IMG/VR virus record: IMGVR_UViG_3300037258_000793 | Coordinates: 1-50,610 of that record | Source of the DNA: a virus | Direction: 5' to 3' (one strand) | DNA length: 50,610 nt | Shown: piece by piece, positions 34,581 through 50,102 of the stretch | How the letters are laid out: each line of letters starts with the position of its first letter | How positions within the stretch are numbered: the first letter of the stretch is position 1 | Translations under genes and position numbers: made by a program | Notes under the pieces: model-generated | Database searches by the model: none | What the model was told of the DNA's origin: nothing | What the model saw: only the letters and a program-made list of their open reading frames with translations

Positions 34581-36692
34581 CTAACTCACGTCGGCCGGCT
34601 CGCGCGCTGCCATCGCGATCCGGATCGCGGCCGGGTCGACCGGGTACCGGTTGTTCGTCGACGGAACTTTCAGCCCGTACTCGTCGTCCAGCCGCGCCCT
34701 CAGGTCGGTGCCGGTCAGCCCGCGGTACGGCGGGTAGTTCGGCGCGAACACCTGCAGCCGCTTGGCCGCCTCGGCGACCGGTACCGGCTCGTCGCCGAGC
34801 ACCTCGGCCAGGTCGACGAGCAGATCCCGCCGCTCGGGCGCAGCAGCAGGCCGGGCGGTCGCCTTCGTGCGCGTGCCGTCCGCGACGACGTCCATGGCCC
34901 GCGCGATGACGTCGGTGGCGGCGTCGAACCCGGTGTCGTCGTTGACCTCGATGAAGAACCACTTCAGGATCTCGAACAGCTGATCCGACACGCCTGTGAT
35001 CAGCGACGTGCCGCGGTCGGTGCCCGGCCGCAGCTCGGTCGCCCGGATGCCGGCCGCAAACGACCCGTCACCGAGGAAGCCGTCGTTCGACCGCCAAGAC
35101 TTCACGTAGAAGCAGGCGTTGACGCTGACCAGCTCGACGATCTTGGGCGGGATCGCTTCCTTCCGGGCCGACTGGGTGTCGAACATCAGCGTGATGCCGG
35201 TCTTGCGGGCGCGCCGGATGGTGTTCGCGCCCATCTCCACGGCCTGCTCGCCGAACTCCGGGTGGCCGAACAGCTCGTGGCACTCGGAGAACAGCGCGAC
35301 GATCGGCCGCAGATCACTGCGCTCGGCGGCGATCTTGCGGGTCAACTTCTTCGCGCCGAGCTTGCGCAGCTCGTCCTCGCGCTTTTCGACCTCGGCGTAC
35401 AGGTCGACCATGGATTGCAGGCCTGCCGCGGTGACGTCGTCGGTCGCGCCGCGGTGGTAGCGGGCGAGGCGCGGTTCGAACGCGTCGAAGTCGCCGTTGT
35501 TGGCGAACACGTGCACCCACAGCTCGGCCAGCGGGTCCAGGGCGCAGCCGAGCATATAGACCCGGCACGCGTTGCTCTTGCCCTGGCCCATCTGTCCGCC
35601 GGCGACGGCGTTGGCGGCGTAGACGGGGGCGAGCAGCACGTCGCCGCGCGGGGTGATGCCGACCGGGACGCCGGCGAACACATCGGCGGTCCCGGTGTGC
35701 AGCAGCGGGTATTCGGGGGCGAGTCCGTCCAGGCTGCCGCGGTCGGCAACCCACACGTCGACGGCGCCCACCGGGCCGGTCTTGGCTTTGGCCGCGTCGG
35801 CCGGCCAGACCTCGACCTGCGATCGCATCAGGTTGCGGGCGAAGGTCTCGTTCACGTCGGCGATCATGGATGGGTTGACGCCGAGTGGCAGCTCGGCGAT
35901 GAAGCGGTAGCCTCTCCCCTCGCGCACGGGCGGCAGCGTGAACGCTGGCACCCAGCCGCTCTTGAATGCGGCGTTGAGCTTGGCGATGCCGAGGTGCTGG
36001 AGGGCCCGAACGACGCCGTCCGCGGTGACGATCAGCCCGGCGTTCTGCTGCTCGGGCTGGAGCTTGGCGACCCACTCTGTGCTGCTGATGGCGGCGTGGC
36101 GTCGGCCGAGGTTCCACAGCCACGCCAGCAGCCCGGCCGGGGCCGCCCACACGGCGAGCGCCATGGCGACGTCGACGGCGTCGGCGCACCAGCGGATGAC
36201 GTCGATAAGCGCCTTGAGCGGGCCGAGGACTTCGCGCGGCTGGTGGCTGGCCAGGGCGAGCAGGATGCCGAGGGCGAACAGGCCGGCCACGGTCAGCCCG
36301 GCGCCGACCAGGGCCGCTTTGGCGGCGTGGGGGGCGTGTCGGATCAGGTCCATGCGGCGCCGGTGGCGTTCCTGCCGCTGTTTGCGGGCGCGATCCTCCC
36401 ACTCCAGAACGCGCTCGTGGTCACCGGCCGCCTCGGCTGCGCGCATCATCCGCTCGTGGCGGGTGGTCGACCGGGAGTCGCGTGACCTGCGGGCTGCGAC
36501 GGACACGCCGAGGGCGACGTGGACGGCGTGCCGGGCCACGGTCTTGCTCGCCGGGTGGGTGACGACCCGGCGCACGAGCTGGCGGCGCGCGGGCGCGTCG
36601 GGAGTCAGTTCCGGGGCTGCTTCGGACGTAGCGGCTGGTGGTGCTGGGGGTGCGTCCGTCGGCGCGTCCGCGTCCGGGACGGTCTTCACCAT
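34581..36692 (-). CDS. FtsK/TraB-like DNA translocase
   Basis: A 703-residue membrane-anchored ATPase. Two membrane spans lie near residues 127-148 and 170-193 after a basic N-terminus. The motor domain has Walker A GQMGQGKS at about 366-373, a Walker B-like IVALFSECHELF near 465 (Ser-Glu in place of Asp-Glu), and FtsK-type ITLMFDTQSARKEAIPPKIVELV. The end (FAPNYPPYRGLTGTDLRARLDDEYGLKVPS) is a winged helix like FtsK-gamma. Similar proteins move double-stranded DNA between mycelial compartments in actinomycete plasmids and integrative elements. Ribosome site GGAAGGAG. Last gene of a leftward unit with DUF2637. Confidence 0.9.
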   Translation of the reverse strand: MVKTVPDADAPTDAPPAPPAATSEAAPELTPDAPARRQLVRRVVTHPASKTVARHAVHVALGVSVAARRSRDSRSTTRHERMMRAAEAAGDHERVLEWEDRARKQRQERHRRRMDLIRHAPHAAKAALVGAGLTVAGLFALGILLALASHQPREVLGPLKALIDVIRWCADAVDVAMALAVWAAPAGLLAWLWNLGRRHAAISSTEWVAKLQPEQQNAGLIVTADGVVRALQHLGIAKLNAAFKSGWVPAFTLPPVREGRGYRFIAELPLGVNPSMIADVNETFARNLMRSQVEVWPADAAKAKTGPVGAVDVWVADRGSLDGLAPEYPLLHTGTADVFAGVPVGITPRGDVLLAPVYAANAVAGGQMGQGKSNACRVYMLGCALDPLAELWVHVFANNGDFDAFEPRLARYHRGATDDVTAAGLQSMVDLYAEVEKREDELRKLGAKKLTRKIAAERSDLRPIVALFSECHELFGHPEFGEQAVEMGANTIRRARKTGITLMFDTQSARKEAIPPKIVELVSVNACFYVKSWRSNDGFLGDGSFAAGIRATELRPGTDRGTSLITGVSDQLFEILKWFFIEVNDDTGFDAATDVIARAMDVVADGTRTKATARPAAAPERRDLLVDLAEVLGDEPVPVAEAAKRLQVFAPNYPPYRGLTGTDLRARLDDEYGLKVPSTNNRYPVDPAAIRIAMAAREPADVS

Positions 36693-43342: not shown

Positions 43343-43702
43343 TCAGGCTCCGTCGTTGGCGCAGTAGACGCACAGGTCGCCGGCTTCGGCGCGGATGACG
43401 TGGCAGCGGGCGCACTTGGGCAGCGCGGCGACCGTGCCGCGGCGCGGCTTGGCCGGTCGGACCGGGCTGGTGGCTCGGCCGGCGGTGGGCACCGGCCACA
43501 GCCCTTCGAGGAGCGTGCGGGCTTCGTCGGCGGTGTATGCGGGCTGCCCGGAGCGGTGGAGGGGCTGATAGGCGTGATCGACGAGGTGGACCAGGTCGTC
43601 GATTGTTTGGGCTCGGGAGATGGGTGCGCCGCACGATAGTTGGCCGGTGAGGTGGCGCATGACGCTTTGGACGGCGTTGGCTTCGGTGAGGTTGAGGGCC
43701 AT
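43343..43702 (-). CDS. hypothetical protein with C-terminal zinc ribbon
   Basis: A 119-residue protein. A helical N-terminal domain (LTEANAVQSVMRHLTGQL, QTIDDLVHLVDHAYQPL, TADEARTLLEGLW) is followed by a basic linker and a zinc ribbon LPKCARCHVIRAEAGDLCVYCAND with two CxxC pairs. Possibly nucleic-acid binding. Part of the chain downstream of the replication genes. Confidence 0.68.
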   Translation of the reverse strand: MALNLTEANAVQSVMRHLTGQLSCGAPISRAQTIDDLVHLVDHAYQPLHRSGQPAYTADEARTLLEGLWPVPTAGRATSPVRPAKPRRGTVAALPKCARCHVIRAEAGDLCVYCANDGA

Positions 43703-43703
43703 G

Positions 43704-43967
43704 TCAGTGGGCTGTTTCTGTGAGGATGTCGCGGGCTCGGTCGAGGCAGGCGAGGGTGGCGGCGCGCTGGCCGGCCTGGGTGGCGTGGCGGGCGCCTTCG
43801 AGGTTGGCGGCGAGGCGTGCGAGTTCGGCGCGGGTGAGGGTGCGGGCCGGTTTGGCCGGCAGGGGTGTTTCGGCGAGGGCGGCTGTGAGGGTGTTGCGGT
43901 GGGCTGTGGCGTCGGGGTCGGCGGGGAGTCGGGCGAGGATGAGCGTGGCGAGCTCGATGGTGGTCAT
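43704..43967 (-). CDS. small helical protein after the helicase loader
   Basis: An 87-residue helical protein from ATG 43967, overlapping the loader-like gene as ATGA (TIELATLILARLPADPDATAHRNTLTAAL, LTRAELARLAANLEGARHATQAGQRAATLACLDRARDIL). No family recognised; coupling suggests a replication-related role. Confidence 0.64.
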   Translation of the reverse strand: MTTIELATLILARLPADPDATAHRNTLTAALAETPLPAKPARTLTRAELARLAANLEGARHATQAGQRAATLACLDRARDILTETAH

Positions 43968-44497
43968 CGGTGCCCTGCGCGCTGGTCGTCGGCGGCCGCG
44001 GCCTGGTCGAGGATGGCGAGCAGCTGCGCGCGGATCGGGGAGTCGTTGGGCCGCGGGGCGCCCGGTGTCTCGGTGTCGGCGGCGGGGATGTAGCCGGTCC
44101 ACTGCTCGGGCGTTTTGAGCGAGTACGGCGGATCGCAGAGTTTGCGGGCGATCTGCGGGTGGGCGAGTACGAGGTCGCGGCGTTGCTGGTTGAGGATCGG
44201 GGCGTGGATGGCGCGGTGGCTGACGCGTTTGCGCCATTCGCCGGGGTTCTGCGCGATGTTCTCGGGTGGCACGGGGATGGGCTTGTTGTGGGGTGCCGGG
44301 CCCAGCAGGTAGCGGATGTCGGCCGGGCGTATGCGGTCGGGGTTGCGGCTGTAGTGCCGGGTGACCATGTCGCGGCAGGCGGTGAAGTCGAGGTCGTGGA
44401 GGGCTCCGGCCCAGGCGATGACGTCGGCGTCGCCGACGGTGCGCTGGTCGTAGCAGGCTATGAAGGCGAGTAGCTGCGCCGCCTCGGACATGATCAT
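43964..44497 (-). CDS. helicase-loader-like protein (lambda P / G39P role)
   Basis: A 177-residue protein directly coupled to the replication initiator (ATGA). The N-terminal 60 residues match the pattern of replicative-helicase loader/inhibitor proteins such as SPP1 G39P: SEAAQLLAFIACYDQRTVGDADVIAWAGALHDLDFTACRDMVTRHYSRNPDRIRPADIRYLL. The rest is basic and flexible, with a short helical end. In lambda and SPP1 such proteins bring the host DnaB-type helicase to the initiator-bound origin. No helicase gene is seen here, so host helicase would be used. Confidence 0.72.
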   Translation of the reverse strand: MIMSEAAQLLAFIACYDQRTVGDADVIAWAGALHDLDFTACRDMVTRHYSRNPDRIRPADIRYLLGPAPHNKPIPVPPENIAQNPGEWRKRVSHRAIHAPILNQQRRDLVLAHPQIARKLCDPPYSLKTPEQWTGYIPAADTETPGAPRPNDSPIRAQLLAILDQAAAADDQRAGHR

Positions 44498-45363
44498 GTG
44501 GTGATCTCCGGGCGGTTCGTGCCGAACAGGTCCGGGAGTTGGCCGGTCTGCTCCATGGCGCGGTATTTGGCGGCGAGGTCGAGGGCGGCGCCGACGCGCT
44601 GGTCGGTGGTGGAGGGCCTCGGCGGATACGGGCCGTTGGCTGTCGGCGCGAAGGCGCCGGAGGTTGTGGGGGGCGGCTGGAACCGGTCGGCGGCGCTGAG
44701 GATCCAGTTGTGCCAGGTGCGTTCCCAATTGAGCTTTACGCCTTTAGAGCCGGGCACCGACGAGAAGTGGTTGATGAATTTCTGCGTTTCACGTTCGCCG
44801 TCGACGTGCGGGGCGTTTTCCCGGCCCCATTCCCGCATGGCGTCGGTGAGGGCGAAGTCTTCCGGGATGCGGGTGCCCCGCTTGGCGGCTGTCGTCGAGC
44901 CGCGCTTGCGCGGCGCCGAAGACGAACGTAGTGAGTCTTCTTGTTCTTCTGTTCCTTGGTGGTTCTGTGTGTCAGCAGTGACACCCCTGGGTGGTCGATC
45001 TGACACCCCTGGGGTGTCATTTTGGAACCCCTGGGGTGTCAGATTGAGACTCGTAGTGGTGTCATCCTGCGACCCCTGGGGTGTCAGTCTGGTACCACTA
45101 GGGCCGTCCATGAGGATCCGGTAGCGACTCGTCGAGCGCCCGGTGCCGTGCTGCGATATCTCAAGCCAGCGCTTTCCGATGCAATTCTTCTGCGTGCGGA
45201 AAACGGTGCTGCGGCTCATTCTTGTCTTGCGTGCGAGTGTTTCCACGCTGGGGAATGCCTCGCCCTCGTCGTCGGCGAAATCCGCGATGGCGAGCAGCAG
45301 CAGCAGGTCGTTTCCGGCCGCGGGGGAGGTGTCCCACACCCATGACATGACCCTGACGCTCAC
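44494..45363 (-). CDS. replication initiator (lambda O-like) carrying the origin
   Basis: A 289-residue protein. The start is GTG 45363 with ribosome site GGGAG; ATG 45348 is an alternative. The N-terminal winged helix (residues 15-95) reads DLLLLLAIADFADDEGEAFPSVETLARKTRMSRSTVFRTQKNCI and RYRILMDG, like phage O-type and DnaD-like initiators. Residues 95-150 are low-complexity and are encoded by 22-base DNA iterons. The C-terminal domain (PEDFALTDAMREWGRENAP, ETQKFINHFSSVPGSKGVKLNWERTWHNWIL) resembles the partner-binding end of such initiators. It is followed by the loader-like gene. Confidence 0.82.
   Translation of the reverse strand: MSVRVMSWVWDTSPAAGNDLLLLLAIADFADDEGEAFPSVETLARKTRMSRSTVFRTQKNCIGKRWLEISQHGTGRSTSRYRILMDGPSGTRLTPQGSQDDTTTSLNLTPQGFQNDTPGVSDRPPRGVTADTQNHQGTEEQEDSLRSSSAPRKRGSTTAAKRGTRIPEDFALTDAMREWGRENAPHVDGERETQKFINHFSSVPGSKGVKLNWERTWHNWILSAADRFQPPPTTSGAFAPTANGPYPPRPSTTDQRVGAALDLAAKYRAMEQTGQLPDLFGTNRPEITT
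44979..45110. other. ori: iteron-type replication origin inside the initiator gene
   Basis: Six copies of a near-palindrome are spaced 22-23 bases apart, with centres at 44988, 45010, 45032, 45055, 45077 and 45099. The copy at 45001-45019, TGACACCCCTGGGGTGTCA, is a perfect palindrome. Those centred at 45032 and 45077 keep ACCCCTGGGGTGTCA; the others are degraded. The spacing is not a multiple of three, so protein repetition cannot explain it. On the downstream side of the gene (44926-44975) lies a T-rich, lower-GC tract, a candidate unwinding element. The layout mirrors lambda ori in gene O. Confidence 0.78.
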
Positions 45364-45445
45364 CAGGCCACTCCCGTCCGTTCGCACTGCTCACTGGATA
45401 GATCTTACAACACTTGGTAGTCTTGGCGACACTAGACAAATCTCA

Positions 45446-45470
45446 CCATGGCCTATCATGTTGGCCATGG
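45446..45470. promoter_or_regulatory. inverted repeat over the start of the antitoxin-like gene
   Basis: CCATGGCC at 45446-45453 and GGCCATGG at 45463-45470 flank a 9-base spacer. The right arm contains the likely start codon at 45467, and TATCAT in the spacer could be a -10. The 80-base divergent gap to the replication gene is AT-richer than its surroundings. Phd/YefM proteins usually bind such repeats at their own promoter. Confidence 0.55.
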
Positions 45471-45751
45471 TCGTGAAGATTGGTAGGACTGGCGTGAAAC
45501 CCGTCCCCATGACTGAGGTGCGCCCTCGGCTGACGGAGATCGTCGATGCCGCACGCGACCGCAACGAGGCCACCGCGATGACCGAGTACGGCCGGCCGCG
45601 TGCCTTCGTCGTCTCGGTGCCGTTCTTCGAGCGCGCCGAGCGCGACTCCCGGCTCGCCGGCCTGCTGTGGGAGCGCGACCCGCAACTGTTCGACGACCTG
45701 CTCAAAGGACTGCCGGACATCTCGGTGCCGTCGCGGATGGTCGCCGAGTAG
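45467..45751 (+). CDS. Phd/YefM-like antitoxin without a toxin partner
   Basis: A 94-residue protein (ATG 45467; 45458 also possible). The N-terminal TEVRPRLTEIVDAARDRNEATAMTEYGRPRAFVVSVPFFERAE is the Phd/YefM DNA-binding domain. The C-terminal ERDSRLAGLLWERDPQLFDDLLKGLPDI is an acidic helix that would bind a toxin. No Doc, YoeB or PIN gene follows; a terminator comes 13 bases after the stop. It may serve only as a regulator next to the replication promoter or counter a host toxin. Confidence 0.82.
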   Translation: MVVKIGRTGVKPVPMTEVRPRLTEIVDAARDRNEATAMTEYGRPRAFVVSVPFFERAERDSRLAGLLWERDPQLFDDLLKGLPDISVPSRMVAE

Positions 45752-45763
45752 GGATGCGCCGAA

Positions 45764-45789
45764 GGGAGCGGCCCGCGAGGGCCGCTCCC
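45764..45789 (+). terminator. 10-bp hairpin after the antitoxin-like gene
   Basis: GGGAGCGGCC at 45764-45773 pairs exactly with 45780-45789 around a 6-base loop. It lies between the convergent ends of the antitoxin-like gene and the leftward small gene at 45875 and may serve both. Confidence 0.7.
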
Positions 45790-45874
45790 CACCGCCGAAC
45801 CGCACTGACCTCACCGCGCGGCGCCGTCCCGCCGCTGCGGCACGAGCAGCTGCGTCTCGCGGCGGGAACGGCGG

Positions 45875-46075
45875 CTACGCATCGGCGATCCGTTCCACTG
45901 CCGCGCGCAGCTGCCGAACCTCGGCCTCAGCGTCCAGCATGCGGCGCCGGGCCGCGAAGAGATCGCGTTCGGTCTCGTGCAGCCGCAGCTCGAACGCTTC
46001 GGCCATCTCGCGGTGATACTGCCAGCGCCACCAGCGGGCCTTGGGCGTGACGGCGAACCGGCGCGGCCTACGCAT
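45875..46075 (-). CDS. small basic coiled-coil protein
   Basis: A 66-residue protein from ATG 46075: a basic, aromatic start (RRPRRFAVTPKARWWRWQYHREMAEAF) and a heptad helix (ELRLHETERDLFAARRRMLDAEAEVRQLRAAVERI). It overlaps the preceding gene by 8 bases. Possibly nucleic-acid binding; family unknown. The last gene of the rightmost early chain. Confidence 0.64.
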   Translation of the reverse strand: MRRPRRFAVTPKARWWRWQYHREMAEAFELRLHETERDLFAARRRMLDAEAEVRQLRAAVERIADA

Positions 46076-46676
46076 CGGCCGCCGCCTGACGCCGGGCCTG
46101 TCTGCGCGCCACCACGACCGCGGAGCGCCCCTTGCGGCACGCCTCGTCGATCGGCTCACCGCGCCGCCGGTGGCGCTCGTACGCGGCCTCGGTACCGCAC
46201 CGGATCGGCTCCGTGCTGTGGTGGCGTCCGCGGCGCCAGTCGGCGTACTGCCGGCACGCCGCGTCGAGCTCTTCGCCCGCGTCGAGGTGGGCGCGCCACG
46301 CCGCATGGCTGCCGCACTGCGGGGGGCGCCGTTCGGACTCGACGTGGCCGGGGAGCTGTTTGCGGTCCTGCACGTCCTGCCAGCGTCGGCACGGGTCGCA
46401 CAGCGGCGTACCTGCCGCCTGGTGGGCCTGGACGCCGGAGCGGGTGCCGTGCCCGAGCGTGACAGTGCCCAGGGTCCCCTGGGAGCGCCGGTTCGACCGC
46501 ATCGGGCGTCCGGTCAGGCCGAGGGCGTCGAGCAGCAGCGCCTCGTCGTCGGGGCCGGTCGCGTGGGCGTGGACGACGGCGGCCGCGGCGTGTTCCTGCG
46601 CCGCGGTGGCCTGGGGCCGCCCGAGCGCGTCCACCTGGCCCTGCAGGTCCTCGACGGGCACGGGACGGCCGCTCAT
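46068..46676 (-). CDS. protein with three tandem Cys/His repeat modules
   Basis: A 202-residue protein from ATG 46676 (TGATG overlap). After a helical N-terminal 80 residues come three related modules. They are HGTRSGVQAHQAAGTPLCDPCRRWQ, then QCGSHAAWRAHLDAGEELDAACRQY, then RCGTEAAYERHRRRGEPIDEACRKG. The shared pattern, (C)G(T/S)xAAxxxHxxxGExxDxAC, recurs in small actinophage proteins and probably holds a metal or iron site. Modules 2 and 3 have two Cys each; module 1 has a CxxC instead. Function unknown. Confidence 0.72.
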   Translation of the reverse strand: MSGRPVPVEDLQGQVDALGRPQATAAQEHAAAAVVHAHATGPDDEALLLDALGLTGRPMRSNRRSQGTLGTVTLGHGTRSGVQAHQAAGTPLCDPCRRWQDVQDRKQLPGHVESERRPPQCGSHAAWRAHLDAGEELDAACRQYADWRRGRHHSTEPIRCGTEAAYERHRRRGEPIDEACRKGRSAVVVARRQARRQAAADA

Positions 46677-48015: not shown

Positions 48016-49365
48016 CTAGTCGGCGTCGGCCACCGGGGGCACCGTCGCGCAGATCAGCCTCACCTGCTCCTGCAGGTCCTCCAGCGTGTTCTGACCCGCG
48101 AACAGCCGGTTCGCCGTGCGCTCGTCCAGCCCCAGGGCCGTGCGCGCGGCGTGCGAGATCTGCACGTGCTCGCGCCCGAATCGCGGCCGCAGCTGCTCCG
48201 GCAGGGACGCCACCTCCACGGCGAAGTCCTCCCGGCGCATGCGGCCGCCGAGCTCGGCGACGACGTGCCCGGCCATGCAGTACGCGGTCCCGCAGTCCGT
48301 CTCGGTGATCCACGAGTTCTGCTCCCAGGTCTCCGGGTGCTCCTCGATCCGCTGCAGGGCCCGCTGCAGGAGCGCCGGGTCGCTCGTCAGCGGGACGCGC
48401 TGAACGAGCGCGCCCCCGGTGACCTCCACCTCGCCGTAGACGCGGACAGTGACGTGCTCGTCGGCGGTCACAGTGCCGGCGCCGGTGTGCAGAACACTGG
48501 AGTAGTCGTGGGCCTCGGTGCGCGGCGACGACGAGCCGTAGGCCTCGGTGCGCGGCGACGACGAGCCGTAGGCCTCGGTGCGCGGCGACGACGAGTCGTA
48601 GGCCTCGGTGATCGGCGACGACGAGTCGTAGGCCTCGGTGATCGGCGACGACGAGTCGTGGGCCTCGGTGCGCGGCGACGACGAGTCGTGGGCCTCGGTG
48701 CGCGGCGACGACGAGTCGTGGGCCTCGGTGATCGGCGACGACGAGTCGTAGGCCTCGGTGATCGGCGACGACGAGCCGTGGGCCACGGTGATCGGCGACG
48801 ACGAGTCGTAGGCCTCGGTGCGCGGCGACGACGAGCCGTAGGCCTCGGTGCGCGGCGACGACGAGCCGTAGGCCTCGGTGCGCGGCGACGACGAGCCGTA
48901 GGCCTCGGTGATCGGCGACGACGAGCCGTAGGCCTCGGTGATCGGCGACGACGAGCCGTAGGCCACGGTGCGCGGCGACGACGAGCCGTAGGCCACGGTG
49001 CGCGGCGACGACGAGTCGTAGGCCTCGGTGATCGGCGACGACGAGTCGTGGGCCACGGTGCGCGGCGACGACGAGTCGTGGGCCACGGTGCGCGGCGACG
49101 ACGAGCCGTAGGCCTCGGTGATCGGCGACGACGAGCCGTAGGCCACGGTGATCGGCGACGACGAGCCGTAGGCCACGGTGATCGGCGACGACGAGCCGTG
49201 GGCCACGAGGGTGGGCGTCGCGGCCCCCTCGACCTTGATCGTGTGGCCGCGCGGGATGTCGGCCGGGATCTCGTAGCGGCCGTCGTTGCTGATGAGCGGG
49301 TAGTCGCTCGCGGCGATGGCGGCCGCGAATGTGATCTGGTCGGTGACGGGCACGTACTGGTACAC
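48016..49365 (-). CDS. decapeptide-repeat protein with DUF6197-like C-terminal domain
   Basis: A 449-residue protein from GTG 49365 (ribosome site AGAGGA). Residues 1-50 (DQITFAAAIAASDYPLISNDGRYEIPADIP) form a short cap. Then come 23 copies of a 10-residue repeat of the form A-(Y/H)-(G/D)-S-S-S-P-(I/R)-T-(E/V), which should build a regular beta-solenoid. After VRVYGEVEVTGG comes a globular domain with LLQRALQRIEEHPETWEQ, DCGTAYCMAGHVVAELGG and HAARTALGLDERTANRLFAGQNTLEDL, resembling DUF6197. A hairpin follows. Function unknown; the solenoid could mimic a surface or DNA, or hold the C-terminal domain at a distance. Confidence 0.8.
   Translation of the reverse strand: MYQYVPVTDQITFAAAIAASDYPLISNDGRYEIPADIPRGHTIKVEGAATPTLVAHGSSSPITVAYGSSSPITVAYGSSSPITEAYGSSSPRTVAHDSSSPRTVAHDSSSPITEAYDSSSPRTVAYGSSSPRTVAYGSSSPITEAYGSSSPITEAYGSSSPRTEAYGSSSPRTEAYGSSSPRTEAYDSSSPITVAHGSSSPITEAYDSSSPITEAHDSSSPRTEAHDSSSPRTEAHDSSSPITEAYDSSSPITEAYDSSSPRTEAYGSSSPRTEAYGSSSPRTEAHDYSSVLHTGAGTVTADEHVTVRVYGEVEVTGGALVQRVPLTSDPALLQRALQRIEEHPETWEQNSWITETDCGTAYCMAGHVVAELGGRMRREDFAVEVASLPEQLRPRFGREHVQISHAARTALGLDERTANRLFAGQNTLEDLQEQVRLICATVPPVADAD
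48511..49200 (-). repeat. 23 tandem 30-bp coding repeats
   Basis: The 30-base unit is repeated 23 times without interruption. All differences fall in four codons, each with just two forms: TAC/CAC, GGC/GAC, ATC/CGC and GAG/GTG (coding strand). All other bases, including silent positions, are identical in every unit. Confidence 0.95.
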
Positions 49366-49402
49366 GGAGATGCGTCCTCTCGGATCGGGTAGGGGATGGT
49401 CA

Positions 49403-49431
49403 GGCCCCGGCCGATTGCGCCGGCCGGGGCC
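49403..49431 (-). terminator. 10-bp hairpin after the Lsr2-like gene
   Basis: GGCCCCGGCC at 49403-49412 pairs exactly with 49422-49431 around a 9-base loop, 12 bases past the stop of the Lsr2-like gene. Confidence 0.65.
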
Positions 49432-49442
49432 GTGTGCGTCGG

Positions 49443-50102
49443 CTATGCCGGGTGCGCGTCGGCGTACGCCGCCAGGACCGGGGCCGGGATCGTGCCGCGC
49501 TCGCCGATCTCGAGGCCGTTCTCCCGGGCCCATGCCCGGATCTCGAGGTTGCGCGTGCGCTCCACGATGGGCGCCGGGGCGGCCGCTTTGGCCTTCTGGC
49601 CGCCGGCGAGCCGCAGGGCCTCGCGGGCCGCGGACAGCTGTGCGGTCAGCCGCTCGACCTGCTCCTGCGCGTCCGCGACCTGCTCGGCGCGCCGGGAGAT
49701 CCCGCGCAGCTCCTCGACCTGGAGCCGGATCTTCGCGGCGAGCGACTGCGCGCGCGCAGGGCCGTCCTTCTCGGCCCACTCCAGCAGCTCGTCGACGGTG
49801 TCGAGGTCCGCGCCGTTGACGACGGCCGTCGGCGTCACCTCGATCACCGGCGACCTGTACCGGCTGGCCGGGGCCATCGGCTTCGGCGTGGGCTTCGGCG
49901 CCTGCACGTTCGCCGGCGTCGGCCGAGCTGCGCGGTTCGCGTCCGCCCGACCGACCGCCGCGGCGATCTGCGCCCGGGTCAGTCCCGTCTCGTCTTCGAC
50001 CAGTTTCAGGTCCTTGCCGTTGCGCACCATCAGGACCGCCTGCGCCTGGTTGGCGGCAAGCGCGGGGCCGCGGTCGGCCCTCGTCGTGTCGGTGGTGGTC
50101 AT
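49443..50102 (-). CDS. Lsr2-like DNA-binding protein with N-terminal helix-turn-helix and coiled coil
   Basis: A 219-residue protein from ATG 50102 (ATGA overlap). Residues 15-55 contain a helix-turn-helix-like stretch (LKLVEDETGLTRAQIAAAVGRADANRAAR). A Pro-rich linker and a coiled coil (LAAKIRLQVEELRGISRRAEQVADAQEQVERLTAQL) follow. The end, EIRAWARENGLEIGERGTIPAPVLAAYADAHPA, matches the DNA-binding domain of Lsr2, the actinobacterial silencer of AT-rich foreign DNA. The AT-hook-like RGR is RGT here. The normal Lsr2 N-terminal dimer domain is absent. It may compete with or modify host silencing. Confidence 0.8.
   Translation of the reverse strand: MTTTDTTRADRGPALAANQAQAVLMVRNGKDLKLVEDETGLTRAQIAAAVGRADANRAARPTPANVQAPKPTPKPMAPASRYRSPVIEVTPTAVVNGADLDTVDELLEWAEKDGPARAQSLAAKIRLQVEELRGISRRAEQVADAQEQVERLTAQLSAAREALRLAGGQKAKAAAPAPIVERTRNLEIRAWARENGLEIGERGTIPAPVLAAYADAHPA

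Follow-up and report, generated by a model that had tools for sequence, protein, structure and literature searches.

What does a palindrome repeated at near-regular intervals do in the middle of a phage gene? The locus that raises this question lies in a window of 50,610 bases, the entire IMG/VR virus record IMGVR_UViG_3300037258_000793, with a GC content of about 71%. Our results suggest that the array is the replication origin of the phage, contained within the gene of its initiator. This is a function that we infer and to which we give a probability of roughly 0.88.

Portal and tail protein genes are among the other genes of the window, and the relatives of the portal protein, found chiefly in Streptomyces and Microbacterium phages, support a probable actinobacterial host. 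On the minus strand, an FtsK/SpoIIIE-like protein is encoded at 34581-36692 (PHROG 1358, E 6e-7), and a 587-residue ORF at 48016-49779 has short peptide repeats, of the form [YH][GD]SSSP[IR]T[EV]A, arranged in a long tandem series. A PhdYefM-like antitoxin ORF (45443-45751, plus strand; Pfam E 3e-5, under the curated cut-off) is divergent from the initiator gene; no toxin partner was identified for it. A sigma-70 promoter was sought near the initiator gene and not found. Across window positions 43501-46500, the GC skew of the plus strand, +0.29 over 43.5-45 kb, drops at the initiator gene to -0.02 over 45-46.5 kb. This break at about 45 kb coincides with the gene layout, which it may reflect, and is not decisive.

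Table 1. Coordinates of the initiator gene, its array and its neighbour in the window.
Feature	Position	Strand	Basis
O-like initiator gene	44494..45387	-	Pfam HTH_36, PHROG profiles
Codons of the winged-helix DNA-binding domain (ORF residues 16-91)	45115..45342	-	HTH_36, AlphaFold pLDDT >90, profile match
Codons of the recognition helix SRSTVFR	45196..45216	-	Within the winged-helix domain codons
Iteron A, palindrome, 17/19	45068..45086	.	Motif match
Half-site TGACACC, surviving arm of the decayed copy 45046-45064	45058..45064	-	Motif match
Iteron B, palindrome, 17/19	45023..45041	.	Motif match
Iteron C, perfect palindrome TGACACCCC-W-GGGGTGTCA	45001..45019	.	Exact match
Iteron D, 16/19	44979..44997	.	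Motif match
Extra half-site TGACACA	44968..44974	-	Motif match
Candidate unwinding element, A-rich on the coding strand (A 50%, T 5%)	44928..44967	-	Base composition
Codons of the C-terminal helical region, presumed replisome-recruiting	44680..44844	-	AlphaFold; role inferred
Gene after the initiator, distant relative of Gingerbug gp43 "helicase loader"	43964..44497	-	ORF; local profile

The gene that carries the repeats encodes a winged-helix O-like initiator (Table 1). Its ORF is matched by Pfam HTH_36 (E 2e-10) and by PHROGs 1032 (E 3e-21), 391, described as "replication initiation O-like" (E 3e-15), and 678, and neither Pfam Phage_rep_O nor Pfam RepA_N matched it at E up to 1. The GTG at 45363 is likely to be the true start, as judged from relatives, which begin with MS[IV][KR]VMSxVW. 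In the AlphaFold model, built with 44 sequences, residues 7-87 form a confident winged helix, 97-167 a disordered linker and 178-232 a helical region, and the linker predicted to be disordered is the segment that the iterons encode. The structure matches of this model are mostly generic winged helices (MarR/Fur/CRP regulators), with plasmid initiator domains among them.

The iterons sit between the codons of the DNA-binding domain and those of the C-terminal domain. An earlier note on this DNA had described six palindromic iterons, including a perfect copy of TGACACCCCTGGGGTGTCA. The perfect copy is exact at 45001-45019, and three further good palindromes stand beside it (16-19 of 19 bases), with two mismatches to TGACACCCCTGGGGTGTCA at 45023 and at 45068 and three at 44979; two further positions, the copy at 45046 and an extra one at 44968, are half-sites only. 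The outermost iteron that had been placed at 45091 matches at about 9 of 19 bases and is indistinguishable from background. Copy starts at 44979, 45001, 45023, 45046 and 45068 give a spacing of 22, 22, 23 and 22 bases, in agreement with the periodicity of 22-23 bases first noticed. Searching both strands for TGACACCCCTGGGGTGTCA at up to three mismatches retrieved seven matches, when 0.01 are expected from dinucleotide shuffles.

The array also exceeds what the encoded peptide imposes. When synonymous codons were permuted within the initiator gene, keeping the peptide, none of 3000 shuffles reached the observed site score (89 for six sites; null mean 70.5, maximum 81), and none of 3000 reached the five copies of GGGTGTCA found in the gene (null maximum 3). 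The half-sites occupy two reading frames and never the third, in which TGACACC would give a TGA stop. Therefore, selection acts on the DNA, as had been proposed, and it is this selection that keeps the iterons and half-sites; the co-variation between iterons and recognition helix across relatives, described below, points in the same direction.

On their C-terminal side, the iterons adjoin an A-rich, strand-asymmetric tract, which on the plus strand is the T-rich tract that had been reported downstream and is real. The coding strand at 44928-44967 is 55% A+T, versus 25-28% immediately downstream, a content that is modest for an unwinding element even though the genome is so GC-rich. Across the 75 genes of the family comparison, an element AACC[AG]TCA is found 3' of the iterons in 33, against a mean of 6.3 and a maximum of 14 in codon shuffles, and 20 have at least two copies (mean 0.4, maximum 3). 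The copies are mostly 10-12 bp apart, never occur on the opposite strand, and are found upstream of the iterons in two genes. At stricter clustering the numbers are small, with 11 of 44 genes (maximum 5 in shuffles) and 3 of 30 (maximum 3). The A-rich tract of the window is a degenerate form of this array. The coding-strand AACC[AG]TCA, phased at 10-12 bp, may act as a strand-specific unwinding or loading site and provides a concrete candidate for DNA opening by O-like initiators.

The stop codon of the initiator overlaps the next ORF (43964..44497) as a four-base ATGA. A local profile ties the product of this ORF to gp43 of the Microbacterium phage Gingerbug, annotated as a helicase loader, by a weak and distant homology, and through it to DUF6475 proteins, which follow initiators in other phages. 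A Pfam search of the product gave no match at all, and hence no link to lambda P was found; likewise, a search for a relative of solved structure found none, and its AlphaFold model has a pLDDT of 35. The resemblance to a helicase loader seen earlier thus comes down to this homology to one annotated phage protein, from which the gene can be considered a putative loader; a G39P-like protein is one conceivable reading.

Prophages of both Actinomycetota and Pseudomonadota contain the half-site of the window, GGGGTGTCA, and sites embedded in initiators of the genome collection include those of Streptomyces, Actinomyces, Bifidobacterium, Variovorax and Aquamicrobium. Among viral contigs, GGGGTGTCA-N(2-6)-TGACACCCC was found at 39 loci, versus five for the reversed control pattern, and 20 of these 39 lie inside winged-helix initiator ORFs according to the local DNA-binding-domain profile. 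The GGGGTGTCA-N-TGACACCCC motif alone was rejected as an initiator marker, as 106 of 142 loci are without an initiator, many exact matches in genomes and viral contigs being plain hairpins or intergenic. Four viral contigs (L035, L039, L045 and L047) share an identical intergenic GGGGTGTCA-TTTAAT-TGACACCCC hairpin unrelated to initiators. Since the profile was seeded largely from loci found by the site, the set collected in this way favours that site and was kept out of the co-variation tests.

A protein-only set was composed of loci gathered by similarity of the DNA-binding domain, plus named phages; the local profile was seeded by few sequences, and betaproteobacterial prophages make up much of the sample. 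An array was called when no more than 2 of 100 codon shuffles equalled the 7-mer repetition observed after the domain. By this measure, 90 of the 147 testable non-redundant wHTH ORFs carry an array after the domain that goes beyond codon shuffles, and many of those without one look like ordinary regulators. Indeed, initiators gathered by protein similarity usually have their in-gene array at the same place. The half-sites of these relatives read GGGTG followed by TCA, ACA, CAA, CAG or AAG, with quite different cores in more distant genes. Very long in-gene arrays after the winged helix were observed in L431 (GTGAAAA, 14 copies), L442 (AATGTTC, 8) and L183 (CTGAAGC, 10). No close relative of the full-length initiator was found among the viral contigs. 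The "RepA-like" matches in mycobacteriophages were discarded as relatives: they concern mainly the C-terminal region, and those of Nazo, Marvin and Xeno are without the wHTH profile.

The relation between protein and site was analysed in 75 initiators, no two sharing more than 75% identity in the DNA-binding domain, by comparing the similarity of iteron 6-mers with the identity of each five-column stretch of the domain while controlling for the rest of it. The correlation is highest (r 0.18-0.35) over the recognition helix, in stretches whose first column is 39-49, and elsewhere reaches up to 0.14. For the helix, the partial Mantel r is 0.357, which none of 999 permutations reached (permuted maximum 0.153). 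Because free permutation ignores relatedness, arrays were also permuted within clades only, giving an r of 0.50 that was not reached in 2000 permutations (maximum 0.343). Among pairs less than 45% identical outside the helix, similar arrays become more frequent with increasing helix identity, from 0.1% up to 53% of the pairs. Single-column correlations on distant pairs are noisy, and some columns outside the helix are also high. Taken across 74 related genes, this comparison shows, at the level of sequence, that the DNA-reading part of the protein and the DNA sites change together, and the view that, within the domain, the recognition helix alone predicts iteron sequence seems well supported.

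A residue-by-residue code must be interpreted more cautiously. Among GGGTG-type sites, all 60 of 60 cases show agreement between residue 7 of the helix and the middle base, yet the tree needs only about four changes. Hypothetically, Arg at position 7 would go with N-C-N (TCA, ACA), Tyr with CAA, Asn, Glu, Gly or Lys with CAG, and Phe or Asp with AAG, and Ser or Arg at position 3 would shift the site from TCA towards ACA. The simpler rule that Arg at position 7 implies a GTCA-containing site was abandoned, with Fisher p values of 0.09-0.31 when strictly one member per cluster and all site types are considered. Only the whole-helix association survives the stricter tests; therefore, the association is well supported and the residue-by-residue code is a hypothesis. 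Overall, we somewhat favour the idea that in this wHTH O-like family the helix and its target array, about 100 bp apart, co-vary by a readable code, with AACC[AG]TCA as a shared second element. In open-access papers, nothing was found on the iteron motif or on a helix-iteron code.

The co-variation indirectly supports binding of the initiator to the sites, from which a mechanism can be proposed. The initiator would bind each palindrome as a pair of winged helices, one recognition helix per half-site GGGGTGTCA, and would pack the sites, phased at 22 bp, into a nucleoprotein complex. This complex would melt the adjacent A-rich tract, on which the initiator and the small protein encoded downstream would load the host replicative helicase. 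The linker peptide would be a by-product of the iterons. With about 110 bp between them in a single gene, site and reader would be inherited and change together.

Other readings of the array have to be considered. If the wHTH protein were mainly a repressor or autoregulator, the array would be an operator, bound within its own gene to block transcription. The fold is indeed that of the MarR/Fur/CRP regulators that dominate the structure matches, and the helix-site co-variation shows binding, not replication. However, the sites are 300 bp inside the gene and not at a promoter, the matching profiles are those of replication-initiator families, some of them shared by lambda O with its known origin at the same place, and the phased AACC[AG]TCA after the array exceeds codon constraint, which makes this reading improbable. 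A parS-like partition or incompatibility locus for prophage maintenance appears more doubtful still: some actinobacteriophages are extrachromosomal prophages, and parS repeats are located beside repA in some mycobacteriophages (PMC7157519), but no partition gene was seen among the neighbours read, and the helix that co-varies with the sites belongs to the initiator.

The repeats could also be a coding accident of a proline/glycine-rich, low-complexity linker (TPQG, TPGV), given that this linker is predicted to be disordered and its peptide is repetitive. This is hardly credible and already contradicted, because peptide-preserving codon shuffles never yield the array (0/3000), its copies, spaced by 22-23 bp, fall in more than one reading frame, and relatives whose linkers cannot be aligned still keep the DNA motif. 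An origin embedded in the initiator gene is thus the reading that we retain.

Phage replication modules with intragenic origins have been surveyed, and the locus of the window is one more case of a known architecture, expected in a high-GC phage. The initiator family around it looks like a natural recognition-code library: as many of these initiators carry their binding sites in their own gene, protein and target come paired without experiment, providing a natural data set on the choice of DNA by winged-helix recognition helices. If the code is true, the origin specificity of uncharacterised phages would be readable, and perhaps predictable, from sequence. Such knowledge could be used for predicting phage and prophage origins and for designating candidate minimal replicons for poorly tractable hosts.

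The closest comparison is with lambda O-ori-P, whose origin lies in the middle of O and consists of iterons and an AT-rich tract (PMC7466680). In lambda (annotated iteron starts 39034, 39054, 39078 and 39101), as in the window, the iterons follow one another every 20-24 bp within the initiator gene, flanked by the codons of its DNA-binding and C-terminal parts, and are followed on the same strand and side by an A-rich coding strand (A 54%, T 20% in lambda). P overlaps O by four bases, as the next gene overlaps the window's initiator, and the two initiators have the same domain order (wHTH, linker, C-terminal region) and PHROGs 391, 678 and 345 in common. In-gene iterons, an O-like winged-helix initiator, an A-rich tract of lambda polarity and the ATGA overlap together make the lambda O-ori-P architecture recognised by the earlier note well supported. 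The iteron sequence is unrelated to that of lambda (ATCCCTC...), as also claimed, although phages of other phyla carry the window's half-site too. Lambda O gave no match to the profile built from the window's initiator family. PHROG 391 is matched by the N-terminal half of the window's initiator and by the C-terminal half of lambda O (L421), which suggests modular exchange of DNA-binding and recruiting domains.

Other replicons share part of this organisation. In RepA_N plasmids, the N-terminal domain of the pSK41 Rep binds boxes located centrally in rep, and the linker that these boxes encode is dispensable (PMC5703833). Plasmid initiator domains 4pql_B (Z 8.9) and 4pt7_B (Z 8.4) are among the structure matches of the window's initiator, tied with generic winged helices; in contrast to RepA_N replicons, this initiator has no Pfam RepA_N match. 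In the RepA/ori of PLEs, satellites of Vibrio, the DNA-binding domain of the initiator co-varies with the origin across variants (PMC8263062); the origin there is intergenic, and co-variation was described at the level of the whole domain. For mycobacteriophages, an origin possibly within repA has been suggested (PMC7157519). Finally, the same wHTH profile and an in-gene array are found in the O-like initiators of Arthrobacter phage Decurro (gp23), Microbacterium phage Gingerbug (gp44), Burkholderia phage Bcep176 (gp11) and Escherichia phage mEp013 (O), where inverted repeats directly follow the wHTH domain, each with its own half-site (GGTGTCG, AGGTCAG, GTCCCAA and GTGACAC, respectively).
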